A DNA stretch of 64,000 nucleotides. Source: Trachythela sp. YZ-2020. Lineage: Eukaryota; Cnidaria; Anthozoa; Malacalcyonacea; Clavulariidae. Shown in pieces: positions 46,901 to 63,762 of the stretch; the first letter of the stretch is position 1; each line of letters starts with the position of its first letter. The stretch spans positions 248,001 to 312,000 of the forward strand of contig JADLSH010000273.1 of NCBI GenBank assembly GCA_016169945.1, in the 5' to 3' direction. The position numbers were made by a program, and so were the translations under genes. The notes beneath the pieces were generated by a model. It did no database searches. It had not been told where the DNA came from and was given only the letters and a program-made list of their open reading frames with translations.

Positions 46901-49900
46901 CCTCCTCCTTCCTTCCTCCTCCTCCTTCCCTCCTTCCTTCCTCTCTCCTTCCTTCCCTTCTTCCCTCCTTCCTTCCCTCCTCCTTCCCTCCATCCCTTCT
47001 TCCCTCCATCCTCCTCCTTCCCTCCTCCCCTCCTCCTTCCCTCCTCCCTCCTTCCTCCTTCCCTCCTCCTTCCTTCCTTCCCTCCTCTCCTTCCTTCTCT
47101 CTCCTTCCTTCCCTTCTTCCCTCCTTCCTTCCCTCCATCCCTCCCTCCTTCCCTCCCTCCTTCCCTCCATCCCTCCTTCCCTCCAACCCTCCTTCCCTCC
47201 ATCCCTCCTTCCCTCCTTCCCTCCTTCCTTCCTTCCTTCCTTCCTTCCCTCTCTCCTTCCTTCCCTTCTTCCCTTCTTCCCTCCTTCCTTCCCTCCCTCC
47301 TTCCCTCCATCCCTCCTTCCCTCCATCCCTCCTTCCCTCCATCCTTCCCTTCCTCCTTCCTTCCCTCTCTCCTTCCTTCCCTTCTTCCCTTCTTCCCTCC
47401 TTCCTTCCCTCCCTCCTTCCCTCCTCCCTCCTTCCCTCCATCCCTCCCTCCTTCCCTCCATCCCTCCCTCCCTCCTTCCTTCCATCCCTCCTTCCCTCCC
47501 TCCTTCCCTGCTTCCTTCCATCCCTCCATCCCTCCATCCCTCCTCCTTCCCTCCCTCCATCCCTCCATCCCTCCTTCCCTCCATCCCTCCCTCCTTCCCT
47601 CCCTCCTTCCCTCCCTCCTTCCCTCCTTCCTCCCTTCCCCCTCCTTCCTTCCTTCTTCCCTCCTTCCCTCCATCCCTCCATCCCTCCTTCCCTCCATCCC
47701 TCCATCCCTCCTTCCCTCCATCCCTCCTTCCCTCCATCCCTCCATCCCTCCATCCTCCTTCCTCCATCCCTCCTTCCCTCCATCCCTCCTTCCTCCATCC
47801 CTCCTTCCTTCTTCCATCCTTCCTTCTTTCATCCTTCCTTCTTTCATCCTTCCTTCTTCCCTTCTTCCTTCTTCCTTCCCTCCCTCCTTCCCTCCATCCC
47901 TCCTTCCCTCCATCCCTCCATCCCTCCTTCCCTCCATCCTTCCCTTCCTCCTTCCTTCCTTCCCTCTCTCCTTCCTTCCCTTCTTCCCTTCTTCCCTCCT
48001 TCCTTCCTTCCCTCCTTCCTTCCTCCCTCCTTCCCTCCTTCCTCTCCATCCCTCCCTCCCTCCATCCCTCCCTCCTTCCCTCCCTACCTCCTTCCATCCC
48101 TCCTTCCCTCCATCCCTCCTTCCTTCCATCCCTCCTTCCCTCCATCCCTCCCTCCTTCCCTCCTCCCTCCTTTCCTCCCTCCTTTCCTCCCTCTCCTCCT
48201 TCCCTCCCTCCTTCCCTCCTTCCTTCCTTCCTTCCTTCCTTCCCTCCTTTTTTCCTTCCTTCCTTCCCTCCTTCCCTCCATCCCTCCTTCCCTCCCTCCT
48301 TCCTTCCATCCCTCCTTCCCTCCATCCCTCCTTCCCTCCTCCTTCCTTCCCTCCATCCCTCCATCCCTCCTTCCCTCCATCCCTCCTTCCCTCCATCCCT
48401 CCTTCCCTCCTTCCCTCCATCCCTCCTTCCCTCCATCCCTCCTTCCCTCCATCCCTCCTTCCTTCCTTCCTTCCTTCCCTCCTTCCTTCTTTCCCTCTCT
48501 CCTTCCTTCCCTTCTTCCCTTCTTCCTTCCCTCCCTCCTTCCCTCCATCCCTCCATCCCTCCTTCCCTCCATCCTTCCCTTCCTCCTTCCTTCCTTCCCT
48601 CTCTCCTTCCTTCTCTTCTTCCCTTCTTCCCTCCTTCCTTCCTTCCCTCCTTCCTTCCCTCCCTCCTTCCCTCCTTCCCTCCATCCCTCCCTCCTTCCCT
48701 CCATCCCTCCCTCCTTCCCTCCCTCCTTCCTTCCATCCCTCCTTCCCTCCATCCCTCCTTCCTTCCATCCCTCCTTCCCTCCATCCCTCCCTCCTTCCCT
48801 CCCTCCTTCCTTCCATCCCTCCTTCCCTCCATCCCTCCCTCCTTCCCTCCCTCCTTCCCTCCTTCCTTCCTTCCTTCCTTCCTTCCCTCCTTTCTTCCTT
48901 CCTTCCCTCCTTCCCTCCATCCCTCCTTCCCTCCCTCCTTCCTTCCATCCCTCCTTCCCTCCATCCCTCCTTCCCTCCATCCCTCCTTCCTTCCTTCCTT
49001 CCCTCCTTCCCTCCCTCATCCCCTTCCTCTCTTCCTTCAATCAAGTCATTCAATAAAAGCAAACAAACAATTTATCCATTATAAATAATTAAATATCTGC
49101 AGATGATATCAGCTGGTAAGACGTTGTTATCAAGTCTACCACACAATAGGCCACCGCAGTTTGATATAGCACTGAGTACTAAAGAAACATCATGGTAATA
49201 CTGAATGTTTCTGGCGTGGTCAGTGCGGAATAAGATTTAGGCCGATCTTATATCTTATTATTCACCTTTTAATTTTCCAATTGATTTTCTCTCTCAAATT
49301 CTCCCAGTTTTCTCGGAGTGTTTCAATATCCTCCTGGATCTGTCTTCGATCCTCAGCTGAAAGCGTTGAATGTGTCTTCAGATCATCTCCGAAACGTATC
49401 ACACTGACTAGCTGTTTCTTCTCTTGAAGTTCCATATCTTTGGCAACATCCTAACATAAATCAAGCATATGAACGTTTTAGGGAGAACGTAACCTAAAAC
49501 TCGGGGTTTTTCTGGCTTTGAGTTTGAACTTTCAAAAGACAACCTTCATTGAATAAGCTGTATATAGTGCAACAAACCTCCATCTCTCGTCTCTGTTTTG
49601 CCACAGTTTCTAAATCAGCATCACTGCCATCATCAGCTTCTAATCTATATTTTTCTCCAGCCAACAAGGCTTCAACACTTGCTAGTTTATTTCTCCATTC
49701 AGACAGTTTACTGTCTTTTTCATCTTGAAATGCTTTTTCACTGGCATTCACTCTAATATTTTGTGAAATTAAATCAGATGAACAATTAGTGCAATGCTTC
49801 TTACCACCCACCGAGTAGAGGTTTGGTCAATGTTCTGGCCCAACGTTATGCAGTGATAGTACAGTGGTGTGTATAGTCAGCTTGCGCCTTTCACCTCTGT

Positions 49901-52900
49901 GATGGGGGTTCAATTTCTGCTATATGCTGTTGTGTGATTATAATTTCGCCTAAGTCGCATGTGAGAAGAGTGCTTCCAGTTTGAGTCTACCAAACACCGC
50001 AGGTTTTCACCGAGTACTCCTGTTTCCTCCTGTATTAACAATCGGTCAATAATGGATAGCCCTTACTGGACCTCTAGGGGGTAGGACTAAAGGCTCTTTT
50101 CCACTCGTCGCAAAAACCAACTCGCAAGCTCGCTGCGAGTACTTTCATCCAATCACAATCCTCGACAGTTTATTTTAATTACATGCAAGAACTCGCAGCG
50201 AGTTGGTTTTGCGATGAGTGGAAAGCTCTTTTCCACTGATCGCAAAACCAACTCGCAAACTCGCTGCGAGTTCTTGCATGTAATTAAAATAAACTGAAAA
50301 GAGCCTTAATAGACCTGTCATAAGAACAAGCCAACAAGGTTTTAGCTGTTTGGCGGAAAGAAAATAAAAGGATATAAACCAAGAGCTAGACTGAAGTTAC
50401 ACAATTTGGTCTTACCGTTTTAGCCTTTCTTCAATCTTCTGTATCACAGCGTTAAAAGAACTTTCCAGCAAAGTAATATCTTGTTGTATCGTCTTTCTGT
50501 CATCCTCCGACATAGAGGCATGCGTCTGTGTATTCCTTCCCATCTCCACAATTGTCTCGAGCTGTTTCTCTTTCAATTGAATTTCTTGAAGTTGAGACTT
50601 GAAAAAAAAAAATTACATACAAATCGTTGAATGTAAGACAGGGGCATGGACACGAGTGGGCAGGGGGACAAGTTGGCTACATGTTTTGAAGAGCCAGTGT
50701 TACTACGGGAGAAAACCTGTACTAAACTAACTGAATAGACAATTTGCATTATAGACTAAATTTTGTTCTAGGCAAGGAGAAGGGAATCAATCACAACAGC
50801 TACAAAGAACATGATAAGATTAGTAAAATTGCAAAGTTTGGTTGCGAAATGTTGTAAAATGCGGAAAATATAGCCTTGCAAAGTTTGAAAATTTTGTATA
50901 CTTTTGTATTACGTGCGGAAATTGCTACCACAGTTGGACCGAAATGTGGTAGGAATTTCCGCACGTAATACAAAAGTATACAAAATTTGCAAACTTTTTT
51001 CGCATTTTCATTTCCAAACTTTGCAATTTTACTAATTTTAGTAAGTTCTTTCCGGCAATATACTTTTTTTTGCCTAGATAAAAAATTAGTCTATAATGCA
51101 AATTGTCTATTTATATACTGCATAGCTCTATCGGCTCTAAACTTTTTTACTTGACGACCAGTGCTACTACAGGAAGAAACCGGAATACCAGAGGAAAGTC
51201 TGCGATATTTGATCATACTGGATGTACTCTTCTCACATTCGATTGAGGAAAAATTATAATCAGACAACTGCATATTGCAGGAATCGAACCCAGGTTCGCA
51301 TGTTCAGTAAGATTGTGACGAAGCAGGTTATATGCCCATGACAGAGTCGTTTTAAGTTTCAGAACAAACAGTAGAGAAACACTTACTTCTAATGTAACCT
51401 TTTGTTTTCGAATCGATTCCGGATCAGACGCAGGATCTCCTTGAGCAGCAAGTTTCTTTTCTTGTTTTGTAAGCCAATCTTGGAGATCTGACACCGCACC
51501 CTTCCAGTTTGATAACAGCACGGATCTTTCTTCACTCAACGCTATTTCCTTCGAGGATAATCTGCATAAAAATGGTATAGATATCACAAACGATCTAAAG
51601 CTAAGGTCTTGAGCACAAAAACGAAGCTATATTGGTGGGTTTCAGTGAGCGTTACAGGACAACAGAGAGTGGTCGACTTCAGAAATGTTTACACATACAA
51701 GACTGCTACATATAATTAACAATTATTGGACGAGGTTAAGCAAGATATCGAGAATTATCAAGGCCGAAGTTTGCGTTATCTGCCGAATCTGAATGCTGAG
51801 GCGGATGACACATACTGAGGCCTTGATAATTCTCGATTATCATGCGAAAACCGAATTCAATTAATTGTTTTAAATAGTCAAAACAGATGCATAATAGAAA
51901 TAATAAACATTAGTTTCTCACTCTGATAACTACCTGCTGAGTCGTTGCCTACCATCTAACTTCGGTTTAGTGCTTACAAAACCCACGTATAATCAATCAG
52001 GGTGGATTACTTTTCCGAAGGATTATTGTGTTTCCACCTACCTTCTAACTTTTTTATGCATTCTTTCTTCCAAGCTTTGCCACTGGTTCTTCAAACTGCT
52101 CATATGCATACGTATTTTAGTTTTATCTTCTTCAAGGAGAGCAGTGTGTTTCTGGACTTCGTCACCCAGGCGGATGGCATTTTGCAGCTCGACCTGTTGC
52201 TTCTGAATTGTTTGAACATCCATCTATAGAACAATAGGTATGTAAGTAAAATCCGGGATTGGTAAGAATTTGCGCATTTTTGACGAATGCCTATTGTACA
52301 TGGTATCAGAAACGAAATTGCGTCAAAGATTGTTCTGGCTAGTTTCTCAAAATAACTCAAAACAAAAATAGTTGGGACAGAAAAAGATTAAGAAATGTGA
52401 CGTATGAAATGTCATTTCCAAACCTCAAATTCGGACTTGAAAGAATTTCAAGTCCTGGCAGTTTAATAGGCTCCAGTCTGCCTTTCCTTCTTCGCTTTAC
52501 ATTGGAACAGACTGCTTAAGGTACGTTCACACACAGCGATTTGTCGGGCCGATTTCAGATGCACGTTAATGATCTTTGAAAAATACGTGGCAAACGTCAT
52601 CTGGCGACATCATCAACTGAAAATATTCGTCATTAACATTCAGCAAAACCCAAAATCGGCCGGACAAATCGCTGTGTGTGAAAGTACCTTTAGACTAGAA
52701 ATCCACCCAAGATGCCCATTTTCTAATTAGGAATATTACTTGAACGAACCTGTGTGGTTAGTTTGTATTTCCTCAAAGTTTCCAGATCATTTGATTCCAG
52801 AACATCATCCTCCTCCCACTTTGTTCCTTGATCACTGAACAGTTGTTCTAATGGAGCACTCTTAGTTTGCCATTCTTCCATCTTTACGACACGTTCTTCA

Positions 52901-55900: not shown

Positions 55901-58900
55901 TAAAGTTAGTTTAGTTTGAGTCTTTGTCTGCTTACCGTTTAACTGTTGCTTCCATTTTTTCTTCCAAAGTTTTCCAAGTTGTTTTGATTTTGTTCATTTC
56001 TTGTTGAAGTTTTCTCTTGTCTTCTGCAGACAATGTTTGATGTTGTTGCATCTCTTCGTGAAGTTTAACGATGGAGTTCAAACGCTTTTCGTTTGCTAGC
56101 ATTTCATTGAAAAGAACCTGTGATGTAAAGATGGTTTTAGTAATAACGATAATAATATAATAACATTTATTCAATCAAAATTTGTACTTAACTGCAGTTA
56201 ATGCTGAACGGGTCGTGGAGCTACTTCTATATATCCTAACCCACCCTGACAACATTTTCTGTGGGAGGAAACCGGAGTACCAGGAGGAACTCCAATGCCT
56301 TGAGTCCAGAGCGAGAATCAACTCACCAGTAGCTAACCATCCACATGCAGGCCCGGAAGTGACGTCACGCTTTCATATTACCCCGGAAGTGGTTAGTATT
56401 CATGGTGTGTGTAGACTGATGACGCCATACAGCGAACTATGGGTGTACGTACTAGGCGTGTACAAAACTTGATTACGTCATTTTACGGATAATACCCGTT
56501 CACTTTTTCTTGTTCGTTTAAACAAAGAAAGAAACAAACACAAGAATAATTTTTGCAAGAATAGTTTTTTGATGCGCGTTTGAAAAACGAGGCGGTTATA
56601 TAACGACGTAGTTTTACCTAATTGTTGATATTCTCAACGAACAGGGGTAGGACATTGAACTAAATATAACTGGAACGCTACCTCCATAGGAAATGTACGG
56701 TAATTCTATAATTTCGCTTATTCAAAGAAAGCTAACTTTCATAAGCCCAGCAACTCAACGCTCAATAGAGCGTCTTGTTTGTTTGTAAAGTCGGACAGCT
56801 GGACAGAACGTTACGTCATGGTTGCCATGCAAGTGGCATTTTCAACAAAAAAATCTCATTATATAATTATTTTTCATTGAATTTGGCAAACGTAGCTGCT
56901 GTTTTATTGAATTTCAATTCCTAAGAAGCTGTTCTATATCTATGGCTGCTATGCCTTTACCGAGTAAGTACCAAAAATAATATCACTAATATTAAATTTC
57001 AGCTGTTAAATGACCGGTAGTTTTACGAAATAGCTGGCCCTCAATCGAAAGCTTACTGGCAAAACAGTCATAGAATCACGTAATATAATTTCACATCGAG
57101 TTTTGTTTTAACTTTCTGTAGGTCTCTAGAATCTATCTAGAATCTACCTGTTCCAATGAGCTTGCTAAGAAATCGCTATGTTTTATCAGCCATTGAGGTT
57201 GTTATACGTCAGGCAGGGTTATTGCCTAATTTGGAACAACGTAGTGGGTCAGGAAACAAACATCACAGCAGCGAGATGTAATAAAACTACTAACTAGTTC
57301 CAAACCTCATCCTCAGTGTCTTCATAAAGGCCCTGAGGACGGGTTTGTCTAGTTACTCGTTACGAATTACAGCAATGATTATAAATAATATTGAAAATCC
57401 TTTCTAATGTCTATAGTTCCTTCTCTGATACCCGTTTCACTATTTTACCTTCAATAGACAGAGAATATGCTGAAAATCACAGAGACTTTTTATTGTACCT
57501 GTTACGAGAGGTTTGGAGACCGTGTAAAGGGCCTCATAAAATGTCCGACACTGCGGCGTTACAGGGCAAAGGGTGTTACTTCGTGTTCTTGCCGGAAAAC
57601 GTTATTGAAAATCAAGATCAACTTATCCCGGTGTATGTCGGTATGACCGGGAGATCTTTTGCAGAACGCTTTAAAAAGCACACTAATGGAGAAACAGGAT
57701 TAGTGGCAAGGATGAAAAATAGCGGGTTGCTGAAAAAGGAGCTGAAAATTAATAACTCGTCATTGATCACGTACGTGATCGAGCTGCCTCTAGCTGTGGC
57801 CACAGATGCTGTGGCTAAGTTTGTCGAGTCGGTGTTCTTGCGCTCGTTTGATTTCGCTATGAACGTGAAGGAAAATAGTGCAGCACGTGCACAAATCCGG
57901 GTGAAGGAAGAGGGGAAGTCAGTTGCGGATGGATATAACCAGTTTAAGAAGGTATACGAGCATTTCTGCTCGTTCTTCAAGAATGTCAATGACAATTTCA
58001 ATGATAATTTCAAAATTGATAATTTCAAAACGCAATCCACGGCAGAAAACGTCGGCGAAACGTCGAACGCGAATAACCGCGCCAACGAACAGCCATCTGG
58101 TTCTCCCGCGAACTACGCCGACCTGTCCACCGAAGGTCTCCATCTTCTGTTGGCGCAGAGAAACCTTTCTCTTGCTGGTTCGCGTGACACTTTATTGCGA
58201 CGCCTCGCCGATCACGATGGAACAGAAGTAATGTCAAACCCAACACCTCTTGATCCGACTCCGAGTATGTCGCAATCCTCTACCGAAACTCTCCGCTCGT
58301 TTCCGTCTGACCTCGCACAGTTTCTTCCCGATGTTTCGGCCCGCGGGACCGAAACCCCAACACCGCCACCAGGTTTTTTCTGACCTCCCTGATTATCCAG
58401 CCTTAGCATAAGTGTTGGCATCATGCGTGCACGGCATATTACTTATTAGCCCTCAGTTTTTCCGATTTCCTTCTCGCACTTAGATACGTTTCCTTTGGAG
58501 CATGGAGTAATAACTGATGGAAAGTTACCTTTGAAATGGGTCTTCGTGATAGCAACAACGTACATAATTTATGTTTGCACACTTTAACTGTGCCAATACA
58601 TATTGCGAGAACTCAGACCAGTTCCAGCATGCAGGTCAGAAAATATCGACACATCAAAGCGCAAAATCAACATAAATAAGGAAAACGGCCCAAAAACTGC
58701 AGACTGTTTCTACAGCTTCGAATTTCTCTCATTACGCTTCCATCTTTTTACTGCTCCTACGCATATTTATAAATATGCGTAATCAATAAACTCGGCTCGG
58801 CTTCCCGTGGCGGAAATGACAATATGTACTTTGTACAGATTGTCATTAATGGCAGGGAAGTGCTGTCCTTTGGGACAACACTTCGCCACGTGAAGTGCAT

Positions 58901-61900
58901 TTTACAGGTCATAAATACGACCTAATGACCTGACCTAGAGACTCGATGGGTCAGTCATACATAGTTGAGTACCCTGCACCGATGGTTGGTCACCAAGTCT
59001 AACTAGGACTCAATTTCAACGAGCTGACTGACCTGAACGGGGGCCCGCCGTCCCCTCCGTTATCTAGAGGCCCACCGTCTCCTCTAGAATAACCTACAGT
59101 TTTTGCATGCTCTGTCAGGTCTTGAGTGCCCTTACTGTCTCAGTATAACTAAGGGTGGTCTCTAGACCATCCGGTCTCAACTCGCTGAACAACATGCCAG
59201 AGCTGGCTCAACCCTCTGCCATCTAGAGGACCTCCGTCTCCTCTAGGTAAAAACGTAGGTTCGCTAGAGCCTCTAGACTGTTCGAGCACTTCCTTGCCCA
59301 AAATATATGCCACAAAATGCGTCTGTTGTGTGTGTTGTCTTGCTGAATTTGCCAGTTGTCCAAAGTACTTTACGATATATTTCAACATATTAAACTTCAT
59401 TAACTTGTGGATAAAGCCAAAAACATTACGGTTTAAGATCGCAAGGATGAAGATCGTAAAGATAGCGACTTCTCAGATTAGAACTTTACCGTATTTTTCC
59501 TTGTTTTAAAAATCATTTTTATGTAATGTTTGATTACGTAAAAATTGATTACCAGCTATAATTGTTTAAAGAGGTATAAAATTAAACATAATCCGAAAAA
59601 TTAACAAGAAAAATTAACACGCGGATTAACGTTTTAAACCATTTATTTGAACAATTATTTACACAAATATACAGTAATTAAACATATTGTCCAGCTTTCA
59701 CACTATTTTCCATCTTAGATCGCTTGACTTTATAGACTGTTATAAGGAAAGCCACTGTTTATGTCTTGCAGTGAAAATTTTTTGGACAACTTTTTGCTTT
59801 ATGTGTACGTTCCCGATTATTTCGTGACAGCAAAGAAATCCTACACGGAAGTTGGTCTGGTTAAGGTACGTTCACACACAGCGATTTGTTGCGCCGATTT
59901 TAGGTTTTGCTGAATGTTAATGACGAATATTTTCAGTTGATGATGTCACCAGATGACGTTTGCCACGTATTTTTCAAATATCATTAACGTGCATCTGAAA
60001 TCGGCCCGACAAATCGCTGTGTGTGAACGTACCTTTAACAAACATATTCGAGATATGCTTAATCGCTATGGCTTGCAGAAATGTAATGTAAAGCCATGGC
60101 CTTGTCACCCCTTAAGGAGGAGTTAAAAGCAGAAGATTTGGATAAATGTATGGTCGCCTTAGATCCAAGGAAACTGACAAAACTGTGTACTATGTGCAAG
60201 AATTTAAAATTGCCTGTGCGGACGAGGAATACACCGACGTTCTCGAGTTTTTAAGAATCGACGAGTACAAGATTAGAAACATCTTTCTTAAAGATATTGA
60301 CGTGACTATGGATTACGCTGGCAGTTTTGACAAGGAAGAAGTAATACGATTTCTAACAGCCAAGAAAGGTTTTCGTGTCCAAGGCAGTAAGAAAGATGCG
60401 GACAGAACAATGTTAGATAATGCAGAACAAGTTGGTAACAACTGTCTTACGTATATGGAAATCGTAGACGGTCTGACAACACGTTGTAAAATTTACAACA
60501 AAATGATCCAAATGCTGAATAGTAAAAGCGTTCGAGAAACCATTGGGCAGCACTGGAAAGATTAGGTTTTCCAGAAAGATACACGTTTGGCAAACGCTCG
60601 CGATTTAGCTAAAGATCGTGGTTTGACTAGGGCAGAAGTGACCTCTTGCTGCAAGGACTGTGTTCCAAGTGATCAGCTTATGGAGAATACTCTGCTACGT
60701 ATTACAGAATATATCCCTCCTGCTGTGGTCTATTCTACTGCGTTTGCAGACACTTTGAAAGCTTACTGTGACGCCATGTTGCACAGTTAGGTTGTTATAG
60801 ATCGGACACGCGACGCTGGCTTGGTCGTATACACTTACAACGAGACCACAAAAGATATAAGTGGACAGTTCGTAGAAAACTGGTCAGAGAAAGAAAGCTG
60901 GTGCCTTGCAAACCTTACACATAGCTCCAAGTTGCCGGTGGATATCATCGAGGTTTATGACCGAAGTAAAGCCATAAACGGAAGAACGACGGATGTATTC
61001 GTAGATATTTCACGAGCTCGCTATTTTAAAAGTCGAAACATGCTGTCACAGCCATTGGTCATATCGAGCATTATAGGCAAGAGAAACTGGTTATCAAGTT
61101 GGACGATGACAATATCTACCAGGCAGGAGACTATTTGAAACAAAAAAGGAACAGTTAATGGATGGTTGTAAAATCGTCATTTCCAAAACAAAGTTATCGC
61201 CCACGAGAAAAAAGTTTGCCGTGTGTAAGATTATACAGAGAGGAGATTGGGCTGGTGTACTAGACTACGAAAAAGTATCGCTGTTGCCAGCGAACAATAA
61301 ACGGAAAGTGTTTAAAGTACTGATTCGTCTGGATGTCAAGCTTGTAGAACATAAAGGACAGAAACGCAAACTCTTGCTAACAGAGGACGGCACAGTCTAC
61401 AAAGTCAAGCGATCTAAGCTGGAAAACAGTGTAAAATCTGGACAATATGTTTAATCACTGTTTATTTCTGTAAAATTGTTATACTTTAAAAAATAAATGG
61501 TTTAAAACGTTAATACGCGCCTGTGCTAATTTATGCATGCATTCAAGCAGAGCAGTGTCCTAGCAACAACATTTTGCTCTAAAAATGTATACATAACCCC
61601 CTTTTTCCTTCTTTTGAGGTATCCTCGCTTTGCGTGCACGGGAATGTTTTGAATTATCGTGTACAAATATCCAGTGTCGTACTTCCACACGACACCCTAT
61701 AACGAACGTTTTATAACTTCTCATTCAGTAACGTAACTTTCCATCGAGTACGTAACAGGGTACGTAACCTCATTGTAATTAATCAAACACACCCGCTGTA
61801 TGACGTCATTACTCAACACACACCATGAATACTAACCACTTCCGGTGTAACATGAAAGCGTGACGTCACTTCCGGGCCTGGATGTGGATGGTTAGCTACT

Positions 61901-63762
61901 CTCACCTCATTTTCTTTCCGTTTTTTTCTCACGACATCCAAAGCAGCGCCAGGCGAGAGTGCTTGAGCTTCAAATTTGTTGTTTTCTTCCACTAGCCACT
62001 GTTCCACTGGCATCGTCTCCTTCTTCCATTCGTCAATCTTCGCCCTTTTATCGCCTTCCAGTTCGCTCTGCGTCTGGTTTAGTCTGAAAATAAGAAAAAT
62101 AAATTTAGTAACAAAGTATTTGAGATACGCACTGGACAATATCCATATTTTATATAACATCTTCATTCAAATGGCGAAAGATGTTGGTATCACGGTAGTT
62201 AGTGCATTTTTCTTTCATCTCTGTGACCGGGATTCAATTCCTGCAACATGCAGTTGTCTGACTATAATATCACCTCAGTCGCATGTAAGAGGAGTGCTTC
62301 CAGTTTGACTCTACCAAACACTGCAGGTTTTCTCCGAGTACTCCTGTTTCCGCCTTTGGTAACACTGGACCAATACGAAATTGTCCTTACTGGACCTCTA
62401 GGGAGAAGAGCTTTGAGCGTATAGACCTATCCAGTATAAATAGAGCTAGCTAGTGCGTTTTCAGATCGTTGGCTTTACCTTTTAAAGTTGGCCTGTGTTT
62501 TCTCCGTCAGACTTGCGAACCTTTTTTGAAGCGTTTCAGTATCTTCTTGTACGGTATTTCTATCCTCGTCTGATAACGAAGAACTCTGAAGAACGTCTTC
62601 ACTCAAACGTAAAATTATATTTAGTTGTTTTTCTTTTTGCTCGATCGTCTCTACGAGTGTCTAAGAAAAACAAATTTATGTTATTTTAGTGAGAAGCAAA
62701 TAAGTAAAGTAAATATGGCGCAAGGCAAGGCAAGGCAAGGCAAGGCAAGGCAAGGCAAGGCAAGGCAAGGCAAGGCAAGGCAAGGCAAGGCAAGGCAAGG
62801 CAAGGTAAGGTAAGGTAAGGTAAGGTAAGGTAAGGTAAGGTAAGGTAAGGTAAGGTAAGGTAAGGTAAGGTAAGGTAAGGTAAGGTAAGGTAAGGTTTAT
62901 TAACGAAAGCAATACCTGTAATTGATTGATCTCCACAGTTATATCTTCATAACTATCAGGAGTGTTCTGATATTGTTCACACTTTGTTTCTTCTTTCTTT
63001 AGCCATTCTTGTAATGGCGAAACTTTATTTTTCCATTCTTTGATTTTAGCTGTCCGTTCACCTTCCAGTTCTGTTGCTTTACTGGTGAGTCTACGAAAAG
63101 GAATTTAATATTGTTAGTAAAGATGTTGTAATGGACACATAATATAAAACTATTAGAACTGCCGCAGCAAAACTGAAAGATTATGTATAGTACACCCACC
63201 GTTTGTTCCTCCACTCTAAATTGTCATGTAAAGTATCCCATCTTCTCTTAATGGTCAATTTATCTTGTTGAATTTGTCTACGATCTTCATCTGATAATAA
63301 CTTCATGTTGAGAACTTCATCTGCTAAGCTCATAGTTTCGTCCAAGTTATCTTTGTGCGCTTTTGTAGCTTCAACGAGGTTCTAAATAGAGATTAATCGT
63401 TTTCATTACATCCTAACTATGACCTGGTCTTCTGTTTCTGGAAGTTCCATTTCTGAAGGTTGAAGGGGTTTTGTAGATGGAAATTTCGAGCAAAAATTAT
63501 ATAGTTTATTACATATTTTAACCAGGTTTACAATTATCTCAAAAACGTAACAAATGTGTACATTTTTATACAGTAGTAATATTTTACCTCGAGTTCGACT
63601 TTTTGTTGTTTCACTACCACTGGTTCTGTTCCAACCGGTCCTTGACTCTCAAGCTCACGCTCCTTGGTATTCAACCATTCTTTCCATTCAGATGCTTTTA
63701 TTCCCCATTCAGACACTTTATTGGAACCTTCTTTTTGAAGTTCATTTTCTTTCTTAGACAAC
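4941..63762 (-). CDS. Giant spectrin-repeat protein, about 70 exons, 5'-partial
   Basis: One reading frame runs through about 70 exons from 63762 down to the TAG at 4943-4941, about 12.56 kb of coding sequence and 4,186 residues. All donors read GT and all acceptors AG, and phases match at every junction. The protein is almost wholly spectrin-type three-helix repeats. Each A exon carries helix-A signals such as KLxEWxxKxxPLxxWLxxxE. Each B exon carries a motif such as LSEEDRxxIxxDI followed by a tryptophan helix and a basic end (often RxKR). The usual cassette is A 175 nt (enters in phase 2, leaves in phase 0) plus B 182 nt (phase 0 to 2), giving 119 residues, longer than the roughly 106 of classical spectrin repeats. 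Such rods link cytoskeleton, membranes or organelles in nesprin, dystonin/MACF and dystrophin families. No actin-binding, EF-hand, GAR or KASH segment is in view, so the paralogue is unresolved. Exons are listed in the six segment entries. Confidence 0.9.
6525..6695. mobile_element. Harbinger-like MITE, family A copy 1
   Basis: A 171-bp non-autonomous element with near-palindromic arms, starting AGGTACGTTCACAC and ending GTGTGAACGTACCT. It is flanked by TAA on both sides (6522-6524 and 6696-6698). A 3-bp TWA duplication is typical of PIF/Harbinger elements. No coding capacity. Confidence 0.8.
7966..8095 (-). mobile_element. SINE-5 copy (tRNA-like)
   Basis: Shares the GATAGATATTTCGAG and GCGAAAAATGCAACT blocks with 18290-18430 and partly with 63455-63535. 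On the minus strand it ends in a degraded B-box-like GATTCCTG segment. Confidence 0.5.
8290..15512 (-). CDS. Giant gene segment 2: irregular repeats, including a 34-nt microexon
   Basis: Exons are 15512-15331, 14688-14655, 14548-14411, 13993-13809, 12722-12578, 11554-11370, 9800-9656, 8943-8762 and 8431-8290. A-type exons here are short (138-145 nt) and B-type exons are 182-185 nt, so repeats run to about 109-110 residues, nearer the standard spectrin length. The A unit after exon 15512-15331 is split into a 34-nt microexon ([11 protein letters not shown]) and a 138-nt exon beginning [11 protein letters not shown]. Exon 12722-12578 enters with one base completing a codon and leaves in phase 0, as in the array upstream. 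The large intron 9801-11369 holds MITE and foldback DNA and then 0.8 kb without recognisable features. Intron 11555-12577 holds a 230-bp palindromic element. Intron 12723-13808 shows only a small repeat fragment near 12840-12950. Confidence 0.85.
8562..8732. mobile_element. Harbinger-like MITE, family A copy 2
   Basis: 171 bp, nearly identical to the copy at 6525 and in the same orientation. Flanking TAA lies at 8559-8561 and 8733-8735. The first base is T where the family has A. Confidence 0.8.
8999..9541. mobile_element. CAAGTTGT-rich element, interrupted by another repeat
   Basis: Rich in ACAAGTTGT/ACAACTTGT inverted motifs and homologous to the intact copy at 32903-33247. The middle (about 9155-9390) is a different repeat, also seen near 36795-36895 and 39498-39590. 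Confidence 0.6.
9221..9372. repeat. About 150-bp repeat, inverted relative to 10404-10545
   Basis: Contains CTTTGTGATTGGTTG at one end. A divergent copy in the opposite orientation lies at 10404-10545, so the pair could form a long inverted structure around the 10015-10393 palindrome. Confidence 0.5.
9863..9991. mobile_element. Palindromic MITE, family B
   Basis: About 129 bp with arms AGGCTCTTTTCCACTCATCG and the reverse complement. A related copy is at 50091-50306. The left and right flanks do not match cleanly, so the duplication is uncertain here. Confidence 0.6.
10015..10393. mobile_element. 379-bp palindromic element with TTAA duplication
   Basis: Left arm GGCCGGCCTCCACTTGCACG is answered by CGTGCAAGTGGACCCCGGCC at the right end. 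Arms extend about 150 bp with CGTACG-rich sequence. TTAA flanks at 10011-10014 and 10394-10397. TTAA duplications occur with piggyBac and Kolobok transposases. Confidence 0.7.
10404..10545. repeat. Inverted copy of the 9221-9372 repeat
   Basis: Contains the complementary CAACCAATCACAAAGCCTG end. The rest of intron 9801-11369 (10546-11340) shows no feature I recognise. Confidence 0.5.
12225..12454. mobile_element. 230-bp element flanked by a 20-bp direct repeat
   Basis: Ends AGAATAGGAAATGA and TTTCCTATTCT form inverted repeats. An inverted homologous copy is at 44735-44960. A 20-bp direct repeat, GCAAAAGCTTTGCCAAAACC, lies on each side (12205-12224 and 12455-12474), much longer than usual target duplications. 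Confidence 0.65.
14750..15298 (+). mobile_element. SINE-1 with its 3' half amplified in tandem
   Basis: A degenerate tRNA-like head (GTGTCACAGTCGTTAGGGCC) is followed by the SINE body. The 3' part (GGTTTCCTCCTGTAGTAACA to AGTTAGTTTAGTTTA) is then repeated with a 114-bp period, starting at 14974, 15088 and 15202, four copies in all. It lies in the intron between 14688 and 15331. Confidence 0.75.
15635..15825 (-). mobile_element. SINE-2 copy (tRNA-derived)
   Basis: Read on the minus strand it has a tRNA-like head with GGTTCGATTCTCGC, then the central region CGTGGGTTTTCTCCGGGCAT. Related copies lie at 23275-23470, 53000-53165, 53620-53795 and 56230-56321. Confidence 0.65.
17021..24911 (-). CDS. 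Giant gene segment 3: transition from irregular to regular repeats
   Basis: Exons are 24911-24730, 24152-23978, 23015-22834, 22697-22520, 21759-21578, 21508-21328, 21104-20926, 20240-20063, 19816-19659, 19264-19142, 18593-18440, 17982-17792 and 17180-17021. The first four pairs keep the 175-181 plus 179-182 nt pattern. Then the pattern breaks: exon 19264-19142 (123 nt, phase 2 to phase 2) inserts an acidic stretch ([13 protein letters not shown]) between a B unit and the next A unit. Typical repeat signals include DLSEKVE with RWRGI in 21759-21578 and [13 protein letters not shown] across the 22834/22697 junction. The donor of 17982-17792 is GTTGGT, chosen because GTAGAT four bases on would break phase. 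Intron 15513-17020 (1.5 kb) holds a SINE-2 copy and otherwise nothing I recognise. Intron 23016-23977 holds a SINE-2 copy and a 187-bp element. Confidence 0.85.
18000..18191. mobile_element. 192-bp MITE rich in CCAACATTG motifs
   Basis: Ends AGGCCCGTTCAAACG and CGTTTGAACGGGCCT. TTA duplications flank it at 17997-17999 and 18192-18194. Repeated CAACATNGT motifs fill the middle. Probably another Harbinger-like family. Confidence 0.7.
18290..18430 (-). mobile_element. SINE-5 copy (tRNA-like)
   Basis: On the minus strand it carries the B-box-like GGTTTGATTCCTGCC, followed by the same block order as the copy at 7966-8095. Confidence 0.5.
18786..19010. repeat. 225-bp foldback repeat
   Basis: Arms of about 100 bp start CGCCTGTATTCTAAAAGCTC and return as the complement. 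They include ACTCAAAGAGTGGAGGTTCA. No clear duplication. Confidence 0.6.
19296..19445. repeat. TAATAAGCCCC tandem repeat
   Basis: Three to four copies of a roughly 58-bp unit with CTCTAATAAGCCCCC and GCTTTTAGATGAAGAAAT, including a run of ten C. It lies between exons 19264 and 19659. Confidence 0.65.
19860..19945 (+). mobile_element. SINE-1 3' fragment
   Basis: Contains CCTTACTGGACCTCTAGGGA and CCAGTATAAATAAAG. No head. Confidence 0.6.
20287..20656. repeat. Imperfect palindromic element
   Basis: The ends carry GACTGGAACGCTAAC and GTTAGCGTTCCAGTT, with internal inverted AATTGAAGCTATTAAAAAG. The same TGGAACGCTAAC end motif starts the elements at 35548 and 54576. Confidence 0.5.
21180..21320 (+). 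mobile_element. SINE-1 5' fragment
   Basis: Contains GTGGCACAGTGGTTAG and GGGGTTTGATTTCTGC, then the start of the body. It stops about 10 bp from the donor of exon 21508-21328. Confidence 0.6.
23275..23470 (-). mobile_element. SINE-2 copy
   Basis: Contains CCTGTGGGAGGAAACCGGAG and, at the head end, the reverse complement of GGGTTCGAGTCCCG with a GCGCCACCGAAGC terminus. Confidence 0.65.
23694..23880. mobile_element. 187-bp element with 26-bp TIRs
   Basis: TIRs begin TTAGTAAAATTACATAGGTG. A truncated copy with the same left half lies at about 28182-28260. Confidence 0.65.
24383..24486 (-). repeat. (AAACT)n array at a SINE-1 tail
   Basis: About 21 near-perfect copies of a 5-bp unit. It directly joins the tail of the reverse SINE-1 at 24487-24722, whose consensus tail is AGTTTAGTTT. 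Confidence 0.85.
24487..24722 (-). mobile_element. SINE-1, head abutting a splice donor
   Basis: On the minus strand it begins GGCTGTTAACAGTGGTTAG, includes a B-box-like CCTGGGGTTAG, and runs to the (AAACT)n tail. The head starts within a few bases of the donor GTAAGT of exon 24911-24730. Confidence 0.7.
25025..25488. mobile_element. 464-bp element with repeated CGGACAT/TGTCCG palindromes
   Basis: Ends AATATCGGTCGG and CCGACCGATATT, with TTAA on both sides (25021-25024 and 25489-25492). About six TGTCCGAC or GTCGGACA motifs line the subterminal regions, as in transposase-binding arrays. Confidence 0.65.
25592..36340 (-). CDS. Giant gene segment 4: regular two-exon repeats with one fused exon
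   Basis: Exons are 36340-36159, 35489-35312, 34258-34077, 33664-33490, 32648-32467, 31706-31347, 31120-30946, 30153-29972, 29538-29364, 28822-28641, 27832-27661, 27274-27093, 26393-26219, 26151-25970 and 25766-25592. B exons are all 182 nt and A exons 172-178 nt. The 360-nt exon 31706-31347 is an A and a B unit joined with no intron (LEEQLEELE through NETLNGRSE), the only such fusion in the regular array. Clear repeat signals include [20 protein letters not shown] (35489-35312) and [20 protein letters not shown] (28822-28641). Intron 34259-35311 (1.05 kb) shows no recognisable feature. Intron 35490-36158 holds a 565-bp MITE-like element. Intron 30154-30945 holds a SINE-3 copy. Confidence 0.9.
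26874..27070 (+). mobile_element. SINE-4, tRNA-like head
   Basis: Head AATAGCTCAATGGTCAGAGT and GGGTTCGATCCCGGGTG match tRNA A and B boxes, but the acceptor stem does not pair well. A non-tRNA body of about 110 bp follows. Best read as a SINE, not a tRNA gene. Confidence 0.6.
27365..27536. mobile_element. Harbinger-like MITE, family A copy 3
   Basis: 172 bp, in the opposite orientation to the 6525 copy, flanked by TTA duplications (27362-27364 and 27537-27539). Lies between two exons of the giant gene. Confidence 0.8.
27955..28095 (+). mobile_element. LINE 3' fragment (reverse transcriptase tail)
   Basis: Reads [12 protein letters not shown] and [19 protein letters not shown], matching the end of many non-LTR reverse transcriptase ORFs (RW-GHV-RR pattern). 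Only about 45 residues remain and there is no catalytic motif. Confidence 0.6.
28912..29093. mobile_element. Harbinger-like MITE, family A copy 4
   Basis: 182 bp. The first eleven or so bases (AGGTACGTTTA) are duplicated before the normal start, and TAA flanks the whole unit (28909-28911 and 29094-29096). Confidence 0.75.
29640..29930 (-). mobile_element. SINE-1 copy
   Basis: Reverse orientation. It holds the tail TTTATACTGGATAGC, the central GGAGGAAACCGAAGTACCCG and a degraded head near 29890-29925. A CATATAC-rich simple repeat at 29575-29640 adjoins it. Confidence 0.65.
30228..30570 (-). mobile_element. SINE-3 copy
   Basis: About 340 bp, nearly the reverse of 55588-55915. Contains CCCTCGACCTGCTGTATAGC and GGAAAACCGGAGTACCCGGA, and an AGTTTAGTTTAG tail shared with SINE-1. 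Confidence 0.7.
31165..31345 (-). mobile_element. SINE-1 3' fragments
   Basis: Two partial reverse copies of the 3' half (AACTGTTCTCCCTAAAGGTC and TCTATAAAATTTAAACTGTT) lie next to the donor of the fused exon 31706-31347. Confidence 0.5.
32130..32330 (+). mobile_element. LINE 3' fragment
   Basis: Degraded coding text resembling [20 protein letters not shown], typical of the tail after a LINE reverse transcriptase. Frameshifted, with no further domains. Confidence 0.5.
32903..33247. mobile_element. CAAGTTGT-rich element, intact copy
   Basis: About 345 bp. Ends ACACGTAAAAA and TTTTTACGTGTGT form inverted repeats. The interior is built of ACAACTTGT/ACAAGTTGT motifs. No coding capacity. Confidence 0.65.
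35548..36112. mobile_element. About 565-bp element starting CAGTGAACTC
   Basis: Homologous over most of its length to 54576-55164, sharing TCCTGTGATTGGATGAAGCC and AGTGGCTTCAAAGATGGCGG. The right end runs almost to the exon ending at 36159. Ends of CAGTG type hint at hAT, but no 8-bp duplication is seen. Confidence 0.55.
37081..46596 (-). CDS. Giant gene segment 5: regular two-exon repeats
   Basis: Exons are 46596-46422, 45174-44993, 43765-43591, 42945-42761, 42395-42221, 42002-41821, 41518-41347, 40688-40507, 39773-39599, 38646-38465 and 37258-37081. All A exons are 172-178 nt and all B exons 182-185 nt. Typical A text is [20 protein letters not shown] (42395-42221). Typical B text is [20 protein letters not shown] (42945-42761). 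Exon 37258-37081 gives [20 protein letters not shown]. Intron 43766-44992 holds 1 kb with no recognisable feature plus a palindromic MITE. Intron 45175-46421 holds two foldback elements and a SINE. Intron 38647-39598 holds palindromic repeat DNA. Confidence 0.9.
37614..37816. repeat. About 200-bp TIR repeat
   Basis: Ends AAAGCCTGGTTTTCATTT and AAATGAAAACCAGGTTTT. An internal stretch (GTCGAACAGGACTTGGTCAC) is shared in reverse with fragments near 12840-12950 and 5295-5335. Confidence 0.55.
38694..38868. repeat. 175-bp long palindrome
   Basis: Arms of about 75 bp include GTTTCTATACACTTATAGAA and its return, and CGTGGGAGTTTGGGAGAACG. A partial third copy of the arm lies at 39060-39095. Confidence 0.6.
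39850..40415 (+). mobile_element. SINE-1, full head plus tandem 3' units
   Basis: Head GTGACACAGTGGTTATGGGA (A-box-like) and GGGTTCGATTCCTGC (B box) show tRNA origin. The body is followed by four 3' units of about 114 bp (starts near 40122, 40236 and 40348), as at the 14750 locus. Confidence 0.8.
40858..41204. mobile_element. About 347-bp TIR element
   Basis: Ends GGGGCTGATTACATGGAGCG and its complement, with repeated CAGCCCGGGCT motifs inside. Non-coding. Confidence 0.6.
41600..41735 (+). mobile_element. SINE-1 fragment
   Basis: Contains ATCGCAGGTTTACTCCGGGT and CTACTGGACCTCTTATG. Head and tail are missing. Confidence 0.5.
42044..42213. repeat. (AAAC/GAAC)n microsatellite
   Basis: About 170 bp of 4-bp units AAAC and GAAC in the intron beside exon 42395-42221, separated from its donor by only a few bases. 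Open frames across it are artefacts. Confidence 0.9.
43008..43332. mobile_element. 325-bp foldback element with TTAA duplication
   Basis: Ends AGTGCACGTG and GTGGGCACT with TTAA on both sides (43004-43007 and 43333-43336). Long arms share CTTTGAAAAAAACTTCA and its return. Confidence 0.65.
44735..44960. mobile_element. Second copy of the 230-bp element, inverted
   Basis: Matches 12225-12454 in reverse orientation, including the CAGTTCAGCGTG-type middle. The right end drifts after TCATTTCC. No long direct repeat is seen here. Confidence 0.6.
45204..45532. mobile_element. 329-bp foldback element with TTAA duplication
   Basis: Arms of about 150 bp (AGTGCCAC and return) are nearly perfect. TTAA at 45200-45203 and 45533-45536. 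The latter TTAA is shared with the next element. Same terminal AGTGC as 43008-43332. Confidence 0.7.
45537..46029. mobile_element. 493-bp foldback element, adjoining the previous one
   Basis: Arms of about 190 bp begin AGGGCTTATGCAGCGAAAAT and return as the complement at the right end. TTAA at 45533-45536 and 46030-46033. Confidence 0.7.
46053..46296 (+). mobile_element. SINE-1 copy
   Basis: Head with GTACAGTGGTTGTCC and GGGGTTCTATTCCTGC, then body and tail AAGTTAGTTTAGTTTAG. The full layout is preserved but diverged. Confidence 0.65.
46725..49038. repeat. 2.3-kb polypyrimidine (CCCTCCTT/CCAT) tract
   Basis: Almost pure C/T on the plus strand, made of CCCT, TCCT and CCAT units, so the giant gene's transcript carries a G/A run of this length in one intron. 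Higher-order blocks recur, for example CTCTCCTTCCTTCCCTTCTT. Long open frames in all phases result from missing stops. Mirror symmetry favours triplex structures. Confidence 0.95.
49266..63762 (-). CDS. Giant gene segment 6: regular two-exon repeats nearest the missing 5' end
   Basis: Exons are 63762-63588, 63381-63200, 63090-62916, 62660-62479, 62083-61906, 56117-55936, 55462-55288, 54440-54259, 54100-53926, 53591-53410, 52927-52750, 52223-52042, 51561-51387, 50597-50416, 49752-49578 and 49450-49266. These are the most uniform repeats. B exons repeatedly read [33 protein letters not shown] or [11 protein letters not shown] at the same place. A exons read [20 protein letters not shown] or close variants. 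Uniformity suggests recent expansion or conversion of the cassette. The intron between 61906 and 56117 is 5.8 kb long because it contains the TIR element. The intron below 49266 contains the 2.3-kb polypyrimidine tract. Confidence 0.9.
49843..50085 (+). mobile_element. SINE-1 copy
   Basis: Head AGTACAGTGG, B-box region GGGGGTTCAATTTCTGC and body up to CTGGACCTCTAGGGG. The tail is replaced by the MITE at 50091. Confidence 0.65.
50091..50306. mobile_element. Palindromic MITE, family B, rearranged copy
   Basis: 216 bp with ends AGGCTCTTTT and AAAAGAGCCT and TAA on both sides. An internal arm is duplicated, so the element holds nearly one and a half units. Confidence 0.65.
50744..51110. mobile_element. 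367-bp palindromic element
   Basis: Outer ends TAGACAATTTGCATTATAGA and complement. Inner arms include TTGTATACTTTTGTATTACG and complement. Non-coding, in the intron next to exon 50416. Confidence 0.6.
51115..51345 (-). mobile_element. SINE-1 copy
   Basis: Reverse orientation, with AATCGAACCCAGGTTCGCAT (B box) near 51287 and a short 3' end near 51120. Confidence 0.6.
52519..52689. mobile_element. Harbinger-like MITE, family A copy 5
   Basis: 171 bp with TTA duplications at 52516-52518 and 52690-52692. Same internal sequence as the other copies. Confidence 0.8.
53000..53165 (-). mobile_element. SINE-2 diverged copy
   Basis: Contains GAATTGATTCTCGCC and AAAGAGTAAGTCAACGCTCC. Strongly diverged but with the same block order. 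Confidence 0.45.
53620..53795 (+). mobile_element. SINE-2 copy
   Basis: Head GGTGCTTCGGTCACGCAGTA and B box GGTTCGATTCTCGC, then CGTGGTTTTTCTCCTGGTAT. Confidence 0.6.
53800..53918 (-). mobile_element. SINE-1 fragment beside a donor
   Basis: Contains GAAACCGAATTACTCAGAG and CTGGAAGCACTCTTCTCATA in reverse. It ends about 7 bp from the donor of exon 54100-53926. Confidence 0.5.
54576..55164. mobile_element. About 589-bp element, second copy of the 35548 family
   Basis: Left end CAGTGAACTCTAC and right end AGAATTCACTG form imperfect TIRs. No clear target duplication. No coding capacity. Confidence 0.55.
55588..55915 (+). mobile_element. SINE-3 copy
   Basis: Starts GCACGGGTGGCAGATGCGGT and ends CCAGTATAAATAAAGTTAG. 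The tail lies about 20 bp from the donor of exon 56117-55936. Confidence 0.7.
56230..56321 (-). mobile_element. SINE-2 fragment at the left edge of the 5.6-kb element
   Basis: Contains TGTGGGAGGAAACCGGAGTA and GAGCGAGAATCAACTCACC. Its head end meets the 6-bp target duplication, so the 5.6-kb element inserted between this SINE and the exon donor. Confidence 0.6.
56328..56434 (+). repeat. Left terminal inverted repeat
   Basis: Pairs with 61794-61900. Both hold GGCCCGGAAGTGACGTCACG, with the palindrome GTGACGTCAC (a CRE-like core) about 30 bp from the end. This could serve a host factor or the transposase. Confidence 0.85.
56435..57390. other. Leader region of the element, no gene
   Basis: AT-rich with no family-like reading frame. 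A TGGAACGCTACCTCC fragment near 56670 resembles the ends of other repeats in this window. The promoter of the GIY-YIG gene should lie at the right end. Confidence 0.45.
57391..58383 (+). CDS. GIY-YIG-like nuclease with SAP domain, 330 residues, intact
   Basis: This is the only long intact frame in the element and shows no introns. Residues 61-63 (GCY) and 82-84 (YVG) fit the GIY and YIG motifs, followed by R88, R93 and H97 in [13 protein letters not shown] and a candidate catalytic glutamate E146 in [11 protein letters not shown]. The GIY-YIG spacing (18 residues) is longer than the common 10-11. A low-complexity N/D/F linker (about 198-213) leads to a SAP motif at 245-276 ([20 protein letters not shown]), a putative DNA-binding helix pair, then a proline- and serine-rich tail. 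The first ATG (57391) is taken; ATG at 57541 would also keep both domains. The gene is more GC-rich than its surroundings. Role, by inference: nicking or cutting DNA at specific sites for the element. It lacks a recognisable transposase core. Confidence 0.7.
   Translation: MKILSNVYSSFSDTRFTILPSIDREYAENHRDFLLYLLREVWRPCKGPHKMSDTAALQGKGCYFVFLPENVIENQDQLIPVYVGMTGRSFAERFKKHTNGETGLVARMKNSGLLKKELKINNSSLITYVIELPLAVATDAVAKFVESVFLRSFDFAMNVKENSAARAQIRVKEEGKSVADGYNQFKKVYEHFCSFFKNVNDNFNDNFKIDNFKTQSTAENVGETSNANNRANEQPSGSPANYADLSTEGLHLLLAQRNLSLAGSRDTLLRRLADHDGTEVMSNPTPLDPTPSMSQSSTETLRSFPSDLAQFLPDVSARGTETPTPPPGFF
58384..58814. other. Spacer after the GIY-YIG gene
   Basis: No gene. It should hold the 3' end of the nuclease transcript. 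Confidence 0.4.
58815..59276. repeat. Hairpin cluster of the element
   Basis: Stem-loops follow closely: AATGACAAT with ATTGTCATT (58815-58847), AAGTG/TGTCC with GGACA/CACTT (58858-58883), CACTTC with GAAGTG (58879-58897, competing with the previous stem), TCTAGAGG with CCTCTAGA (59063-59088), CTAGAGG with CCTCTAG (59223-59246) and CTAGAG with CTCTAG (59264-59276). Two loops share CCGTCT. They lie between the two genes. Confidence 0.6.
59624..59740 (-). pseudogene. Inverted 3'-end fragment of the replication-like gene family
   Basis: On the minus strand this matches 61392-61517, including the last 19 codons, the stop, the AATAAA signal and the downstream ACGTTAA. Most differences in the coding part are silent or conservative (L to M, S to A), so it comes from a separate coding copy, not from a dead duplicate. 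No coding continues upstream of it. Confidence 0.7.
59761..61454 (+). pseudogene. Broken gene of unrecognised, possibly replication-initiator-like family
   Basis: Frame begins [20 protein letters not shown] and continues in pieces to QYV at 61454. Breaks visible: the MITE at 59864-60034, a frame change near 60110-60145, in-frame TAG codons at 60563 and 60788, and frame changes near 61040 and 61130 (the latter in a run of six A). The longest piece (60146-60565) contains [20 protein letters not shown], then [20 protein letters not shown] and a QHWKD motif. The acidic D-V-T-x-D-Y stretch followed by a YNK motif resembles, loosely, the RxDxxxD and YDK motifs of rolling-circle initiators of the Rep_trans kind; a tyrosine nuclease motif is not certain. 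I believe related proteins occur in cnidarian genomes, from memory only. The original length was about 500 residues. Confidence 0.55.
59864..60034. mobile_element. Harbinger-like MITE, family A copy 6, nested in the 5.6-kb element
   Basis: 171 bp with TTA duplications at 59861-59863 and 60035-60037. It interrupts the start of the broken replication-like gene of the 5.6-kb element. Removing the MITE and one TTA leaves a continuous frame across the junction, so the MITE landed in a coding region. Confidence 0.8.
61794..61900 (-). repeat. Right terminal inverted repeat
   Basis: Reverse complement of the left TIR with about ten differences. It ends GGTTAGCTACT directly before the CTCACC duplication that also contains the splice donor of exon 62083-61906. 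Confidence 0.85.
62180..62455 (+). mobile_element. SINE-1 copy
   Basis: Head GTATCACGGTAGTTAGTGCA, then GGGATTCAATTCCTGC, body and tail CCAGTATAAATAGAGC. It lies between exons 62083 and 62479. Confidence 0.7.
62720..62896. repeat. (GCAAG)17 then (GTAAG)18 microsatellite
   Basis: A 5-bp array whose first half is GCAAG and second half GTAAG with one sharp switch near 62804. Ends about 20 bp from exon 63090-62916. Confidence 0.9.
63455..63535 (-). mobile_element. SINE-5 fragment
   Basis: Contains GTAGATGGAAATTTCGAG, matching 18294-18312. The head is missing. Confidence 0.45.

Follow-up and report, generated by a model that had tools for sequence, protein, structure and literature searches.

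The window analysed here is a stretch of 64,000 nucleotides (contig JADLSH010000273.1; C197:248001-312000 in our contig numbering) from a 578-Mb genome in 396 contigs. Positions 56328-61900 of the window are an inserted mobile unit of 5573 bp, which an earlier reading made from the sequence alone (the sequence-only reading) had already observed. The unit is bounded by terminal inverted repeats (TIRs) and a target-site duplication (TSD). It holds an intact open reading frame (ORF), ORF1, which combines GIY-YIG-like and SAP-like parts, and a broken gene that recalls in several motifs the Rep_trans initiators known from plasmids and filamentous phages. The features are collected in Table 1.

The element, its ends and its other copies

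The two TIRs are 93% complementary, both open with AGTAGCTAACCA, and CTCACC stands directly outside each. Long TIRs that start with AG are a trait of Polinton/Maverick elements, and the 107-bp repeats here begin with AGTAGCTAACC at both ends. The 6-bp TSD, exact in the window (CTCACC) and in a second copy (CCCACT) and agreeing at five of six positions in a third, has the length given for Polintons in an excerpt of PMC10045372. A chance origin of the ends is very unlikely, because the second genomic pair has an exact duplication of its own. The sequence-only reading had taken the unit to be transposed and had assigned its ends and duplication length to the Polinton type, and the repeats and the duplication bear out both claims.

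That reading had also called for a search of the source genome with the terminal repeat, and two further pairs with their own duplications have now been found. Used as a DNA query, the left TIR gave six candidates and six matches: the two ends in the window, a complete pair at C351:6436042-6438960 with CCCACT on both sides, an unpaired end at C351:6576102 with a flank similar to that of this pair, and a partial end on contig C191. The third pair, a diverged one, was found by reading a 200-kb neighbourhood and lies at C351:6580548-6586345 (L028:548-6345 in our locus numbering), with AGTAGATTAACAC ends flanked by AATAGA and CATAGA, which brings the number of insertions with this kind of end to three. 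In the diverged element, arms of ~1.9 kb are 99% complementary, each arm contains a 164-aa ORF with MECLHGKPA, and the frame that lies mid-element, L028:3091-3936, is C2H2-like (E 0.19 for its best match in Pfam). The near-identity of the arms suggests that the palindromes are recent or gene-converted.

By BLAST, positions ~5007-5259 of the window element, which cover the last part of the broken gene along with its 3' flank, are present in both C351 elements, where the matching segments occur in both orientations within large palindromes. With its tail inside both of these elements, the broken gene contributes a segment that belongs to this kind of element. A possible further relative was seen at L016:9718 to L017:1650; it has a AGTGTCTTAACC..GGAAGT end with no matching right end identified, a C2H2 ORF on the minus strand (L017:90-695; zf-C2H2 E 0.0007) and an ORF starting MKCLHGEPA.

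The Pfam scan covered six frames of the element, namely ORF1, a further frame and four pieces from the broken gene, and none of the six matched PolB, integrase, ATPase, protease or capsid. Within these six frames the absence of Polinton core genes, claimed earlier, is thus confirmed. The element has the AG-starting TIRs and the 6-bp duplication in common with Polintons/Mavericks, but differs from them in its length of 5.6 kb and in carrying a Rep-like gene instead, the core genes not being found in the frames tested. Compared with Polinton-like viruses and virophages, whose proteins were likened by description only, no capsid or PolB was seen here.

ORF1 likely encodes a GIY-YIG nuclease, judging from the motif GCY...YVG read in its sequence and from Pfam matches that stay below the cut-offs (GIY-YIG PF01541 at E 0.0097, SAP at E 0.045, and PF19239 at E 0.0042 for the GIY part alone). 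Its C-terminal third is 48-60% identical to nine database proteins (P0001-P0009) over 29-36% of the query. By our own reading these proteins are gag-like and presumably DIRS-like; the two that were scanned gave a SAP-like match, and P0002 gave a weak zinc-knuckle-like match. They have this third in common with ORF1 but are without the GIY-YIG-like half and continue into further sequence. The SAP half, being common to gag-like proteins, is therefore not private to this element, and ORF1 gives the appearance of a fusion in which a nuclease-like half is joined to a domain used elsewhere too. What stands of the intact GIY-YIG plus SAP gene of the sequence-only reading is the single open frame and the two sub-cut-off domain matches; the SAP half is shared. 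In viral_contigs no relative was found for ORF1, for the TIR string or for the Rep alignment A2.

Table 1. Positions of the element's features and of related repeats in the window.
Feature	Position	Strand	Remarks
Left TSD, CTCACC	56322..56327	.	exact match to 61901-61906
Left TIR, starts AGTAGCTAACC	56328..56434	+	93% over 107 nt
ORF1, GIY-YIG-like then SAP-like domain	57385..58383	+	332 codons stop to stop, single open frame
Inverted partial tail copy (last 20 codons and 3' flank)	59611..59740	-	84% to 61392-61532; reads TVYKVKRSKMENSVKAGQYV
Broken Rep-like gene	59750..61454 (about)	+	pieces 60146-60562, 60566-60787, 60791-61135, 61110-61451
Miniature inverted-repeat transposable element (MITE), TTAA at edges, inside broken gene	59860..60037	.	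arms 59855-59903 / 59995-60043
Right arm of inner inverted repeat (gene tail and 3' flank)	61392..61532	+	like TIR-bounded relative through ~61610
Right TIR	61794..61900	-	pairs with left TIR
Right TSD, CTCACC	61901..61906	.	exact match to 56322-56327
Other MITE copies	6522-6699, 8559-8735, 27357-27540, 28920-29094, 52518-52690		

The broken gene and its relatives

The pieces of the broken gene are separated by stops, frame changes and an inserted MITE of ~0.18 kb, and the N-terminal or upstream start, read by eye against relatives, is split by the MITE. By our own reading, the relatives have an internal stretch that the broken gene appears to lack. The best of its pieces has 85 database relatives at E <= 0.001, and a profile of 32 sequences finds 305 at E <= 0.01 among 2448 candidates; no precomputed Pfam domain is recorded on the 120 of these 305 that were listed. 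None of the Pfam or NCBIfam families fits the members of the group that were scanned.

The family is also large within the source genome, where the best piece has at least 95 matches (the genome counts given here are lower bounds). Thirty-six of the 95, the window copy included, are at least 72% identical over 125 or more of the 139 residues. For 16 of the 95 the surrounding frame is free of stops and 721-1219 aa long; six of these are close to the window copy (730, 870, 787, 875, 721 and 765 aa), and the other ten are distant, at 37-54% identity. Within the distant group a second Rep-like lineage was noticed at C351:6002889, C254:41505, C155:9072043 and C334:7447511, with stop-free frames of 1187-1219 aa that are 37-40% identical to the window piece.

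Comparison with Rep_trans initiators

The reading that we tentatively prefer, at somewhat under an even chance, is that of a decayed Polinton-ended element, likely inserted by an integrase acting in trans, that carries a decayed gene for a Rep_trans-like nicking initiator. The motifs of Rep_trans proteins are given in an excerpt of a review (PMC5714925) as N' D, I RxD, II T/SxY/ExG, III YxKxxE and IV W/LxRxE, and for a Rep_trans structure R189, Y191, K193, E196 or Q184 are named in an excerpt of PMC4797284. To compare the broken gene with these, conservation was counted among the 57 of 171 relatives that reach at least 250 aa. The best-kept blocks are KDIDVTMDYAGSF, N..VG.NCL[TS][YW]ME, [KR]xYNKMVQ and GLTRAEV. 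Single positions are kept as follows: D275 in 49 of 49, Y282 in 53 of 54, G284 and F286 in 54 of 54, E334 in 55 of 55, N347 and K348 in 51 of 52, the proposed catalytic Y346 in 48 of 53 and the proposed catalytic E411 in 40 of 44.

Motif III, which has an R two residues before the tyrosine, is present, mostly in the form KxYNKMVQ with K for R and Q for E; a Q in place of the motif III glutamate also occurs in RepSTK1 (PMC4797284, same excerpt). Motif IV is present as LTRAE (L in 42 of 46, R in 39 of 46, E in 40 of 44). When the pattern of motifs III and IV, loosened by us to [RK], [EQ] and a spacer of 10-60, was sought in order in shuffled versions of three relatives, it arose 9, 6 and 7 times per 20000 shuffles. 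The RstA protein of phage phiSMA9, a true Rep_trans protein (PF02486 at E 5.5e-19), has its blocks in the same order: RVDCAHDDYEG, TLYVGG, VYEKGK and WVRAEVRLY..EIPLD. Alignment with the RstA side by hhalign brought block IV alone together in one run, and all four blocks into register under one of three gap settings. Two other proteins considered as Rep_trans yardsticks, Pf1 orf430 and B5 Orf9, were set aside, as neither carries PF02486.

In sum of likeness, the family has in common with the Rep_trans initiators of PF02486 (pT181-type plasmids, CTX-type filamentous phages and ICEBs1/Tn916) the block order, YxKxx[EQ], LxRxE and an acidic block before the tyrosine. It is unlike them in having no Pfam match, in its motif II and in that its open frames are 721-1219 aa long and belong to a genome that is likely an animal's. 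The distance from the tyrosine to the motif IV glutamate also differs, being 47 residues here (our own count, in P0030) versus 23 in RepDE (Y191 to E214, in the excerpted description). A precedent for a Rep_trans relative that cannot be recognised by sequence is Rep-Arvir of archaeal viruses and plasmids, to which the family was likened by description only; that protein is archaeal, combines DUF7845 with a winged helix and has KHYYM as its motif III (excerpt of PMC13107129).

A number of results weigh against the preferred reading. The proposed catalytic tyrosine is less well kept than the adjoining N and K. At motif I the family has KDIDVTMDY, a partial fit with the aspartates kept and the R absent, and motif II is not found, the corresponding stretch being LTYME, or CL[TS][YW]ME in relatives. 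With a spacer of 15-60, the III-IV pattern occurs in 52 of the 77 proteins that reach both blocks, and a four-block pattern that we wrote ourselves fits two of three proteins. None of ten longer relatives matches PF02486 in Pfam at E <= 1, and neither the 22 alignment members scanned in Pfam nor the 32 scanned in NCBIfam match Rep_trans. Against a Rep_trans phage profile of 22 sequences (23 had been chosen out of 79 loci), the hhalign score was not significant: of 100 column shuffles, 13, 3 and 12 reached it under the three gap settings. As to the rest of the element, the other TIR-bounded copies showed the tail of the broken gene and nothing of its body, and no match to ORF1 was found by tblastn in those C351 and C191 loci that were tested. 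A 6-bp TSD also occurs outside Polintons according to the same excerpt of PMC10045372, which gives 3-6 bp for long terminal repeat (LTR) retrotransposons and retroviruses and 6 bp for most IS481; since 6 bp falls in the range of retroviruses and LTR retrotransposons, the assignment to Polintons is drawn from the TSD length in combination with the long TIRs that start with AG.

Because column shuffles reach the hhalign scores, we say that the predicted protein works like a Rep_trans initiator, and not that it is a member of that family. The replication-like gene of the sequence-only reading accordingly holds at the level of motifs III and IV but not at that of profiles. In searches elsewhere, tblastn with Rep relatives gave one and seven matches in phages and plasmids, the lowest E being 0.6 and no replication gene being among them; sequence searches of the PDB gave one match at E 2.2 and, in a second search, none; and PHROGs gave weak, scattered matches, the best of which, obtained with one of eight proteins, was to an 'HNH endonuclease' (E 0.0019).

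An alternative that we hold almost as likely as the preferred reading is that the broken gene encoded a protein of DNA binding or recombination that has no relation to Rep_trans, the motif match being a convergence. The missing profile-level support and the absence of motif II speak for it, as does the fact that G284, F286, N320, C329 and E334, which are among the most invariant positions, lie outside the Rep_trans motifs. Against convergence stand the rarity of the ordered III-IV pattern in shuffled sequences (6 to 9 of 20000) and a block order identical to that of phage RstA.

Origin and propagation of the element

On the preferred reading of a Polinton-ended element with a Rep_trans-like initiator, insertion would have been the work of a Polinton-type (retroviral-like) integrase that another element provided; action in trans is proposed from the ends, from how long the duplication is and from the absence of any integrase gene among the six tested frames. 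The product of the Rep-like gene would start replication of the element by nicking DNA, as Rep_trans initiators do in plasmids and filamentous phages. It is a predicted tyrosine nickase, whose active site may be formed by the KDID...D block together with the tyrosine in [KR]xYNKxxQ and the glutamate in LTRAE. Replication may pass through hairpin or rolling-circle forms, which would account for the large palindromes in the relatives; these could be by-products of hairpin or template-switch replication. The GIY-YIG plus SAP protein would be an accessory DNA-cutting protein.

We further consider it possible, with somewhat more doubt, that these elements are a new class of self-replicating animal transposon that joins Polinton-type ends to a Rep_trans-type tyrosine nickase of 700-1200 aa, which would be the first eukaryotic relative of Rep_trans and whose gene is open in many copies within this genome. 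Rep_trans initiators are described in the excerpt of PMC13107129 as seemingly restricted to bacteria, with one distant archaeal branch. Among the matches listed in a check of titles and abstract openings there was no animal Rep_trans element and no transposon with GIY-YIG and SAP. If true, a eukaryotic branch of Rep_trans in a Polinton-ended transposon would join plasmid-style replication to integrase-type insertion, and would show in what way elements that lack the Polinton genes can have Polinton ends in common with Polintons. With long open frames present in a single genome, the Rep-like reading is testable.

We think it unlikely that the unit is an ordinary Polinton shrunk by internal deletion, with PolB, integrase and capsid lost and with ORF1 and the Rep-like gene as cargo. 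Such a history would agree with the ends and the 6-bp TSD, and the copies with such ends vary in content and in size, from 2.9 to 5.8 kb, as deletion derivatives would; in addition, GIY-YIG is reportedly mentioned in papers on Polinton-like viruses and virophages. However, no remnant of a core gene was seen in the six frames tested, and the Rep-like tail is present in both other TIR-bounded copies, which were not themselves profile-scanned for Polinton genes.

The inner inverted repeat (59611-59740 and 61392-61532) is a feature that the sequence-only reading did not contain. Its left arm still reads TVYKVKRSKMENSVKAGQYV, with 18 of 20 residues the same as in the right arm. The alignment of the window with C351:6436042-6438960 runs from the last codons past this repeat to ~61610, towards the TIR, which favours a tail duplicate over a nested transposon; the repeat is better read, as far as the alignment can tell, as an inverted duplicate of the gene's tail. 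It is improbable that the stretch 59611-61532, made up of the Rep-like gene and its inverted tails, is a transposon in its own right, inserted into a Polinton-ended element otherwise holding only ORF1, for although an inverted repeat of ~130 bp flanks the gene, the similarity to the TIR-bounded relative extends beyond it, no duplication was seen by eye at its edges, and it includes the last 20 codons, more like an inverted duplication, the palindromes of the same region in relatives being much larger.

Of the remaining repeats, the MITE inside the broken gene, which with its TTAA edges is presumably piggyBac-like, is one of six copies in the 64 kb, the other five being 91-97% identical. Minus-strand frames around the element resemble, when read by eye, spectrin-repeat exons, and on this reading the host is likely an animal. 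A minisatellite of ~2.4 kb at 46609-49088 is open in several frames of both strands and is pyrimidine-rich on one strand.

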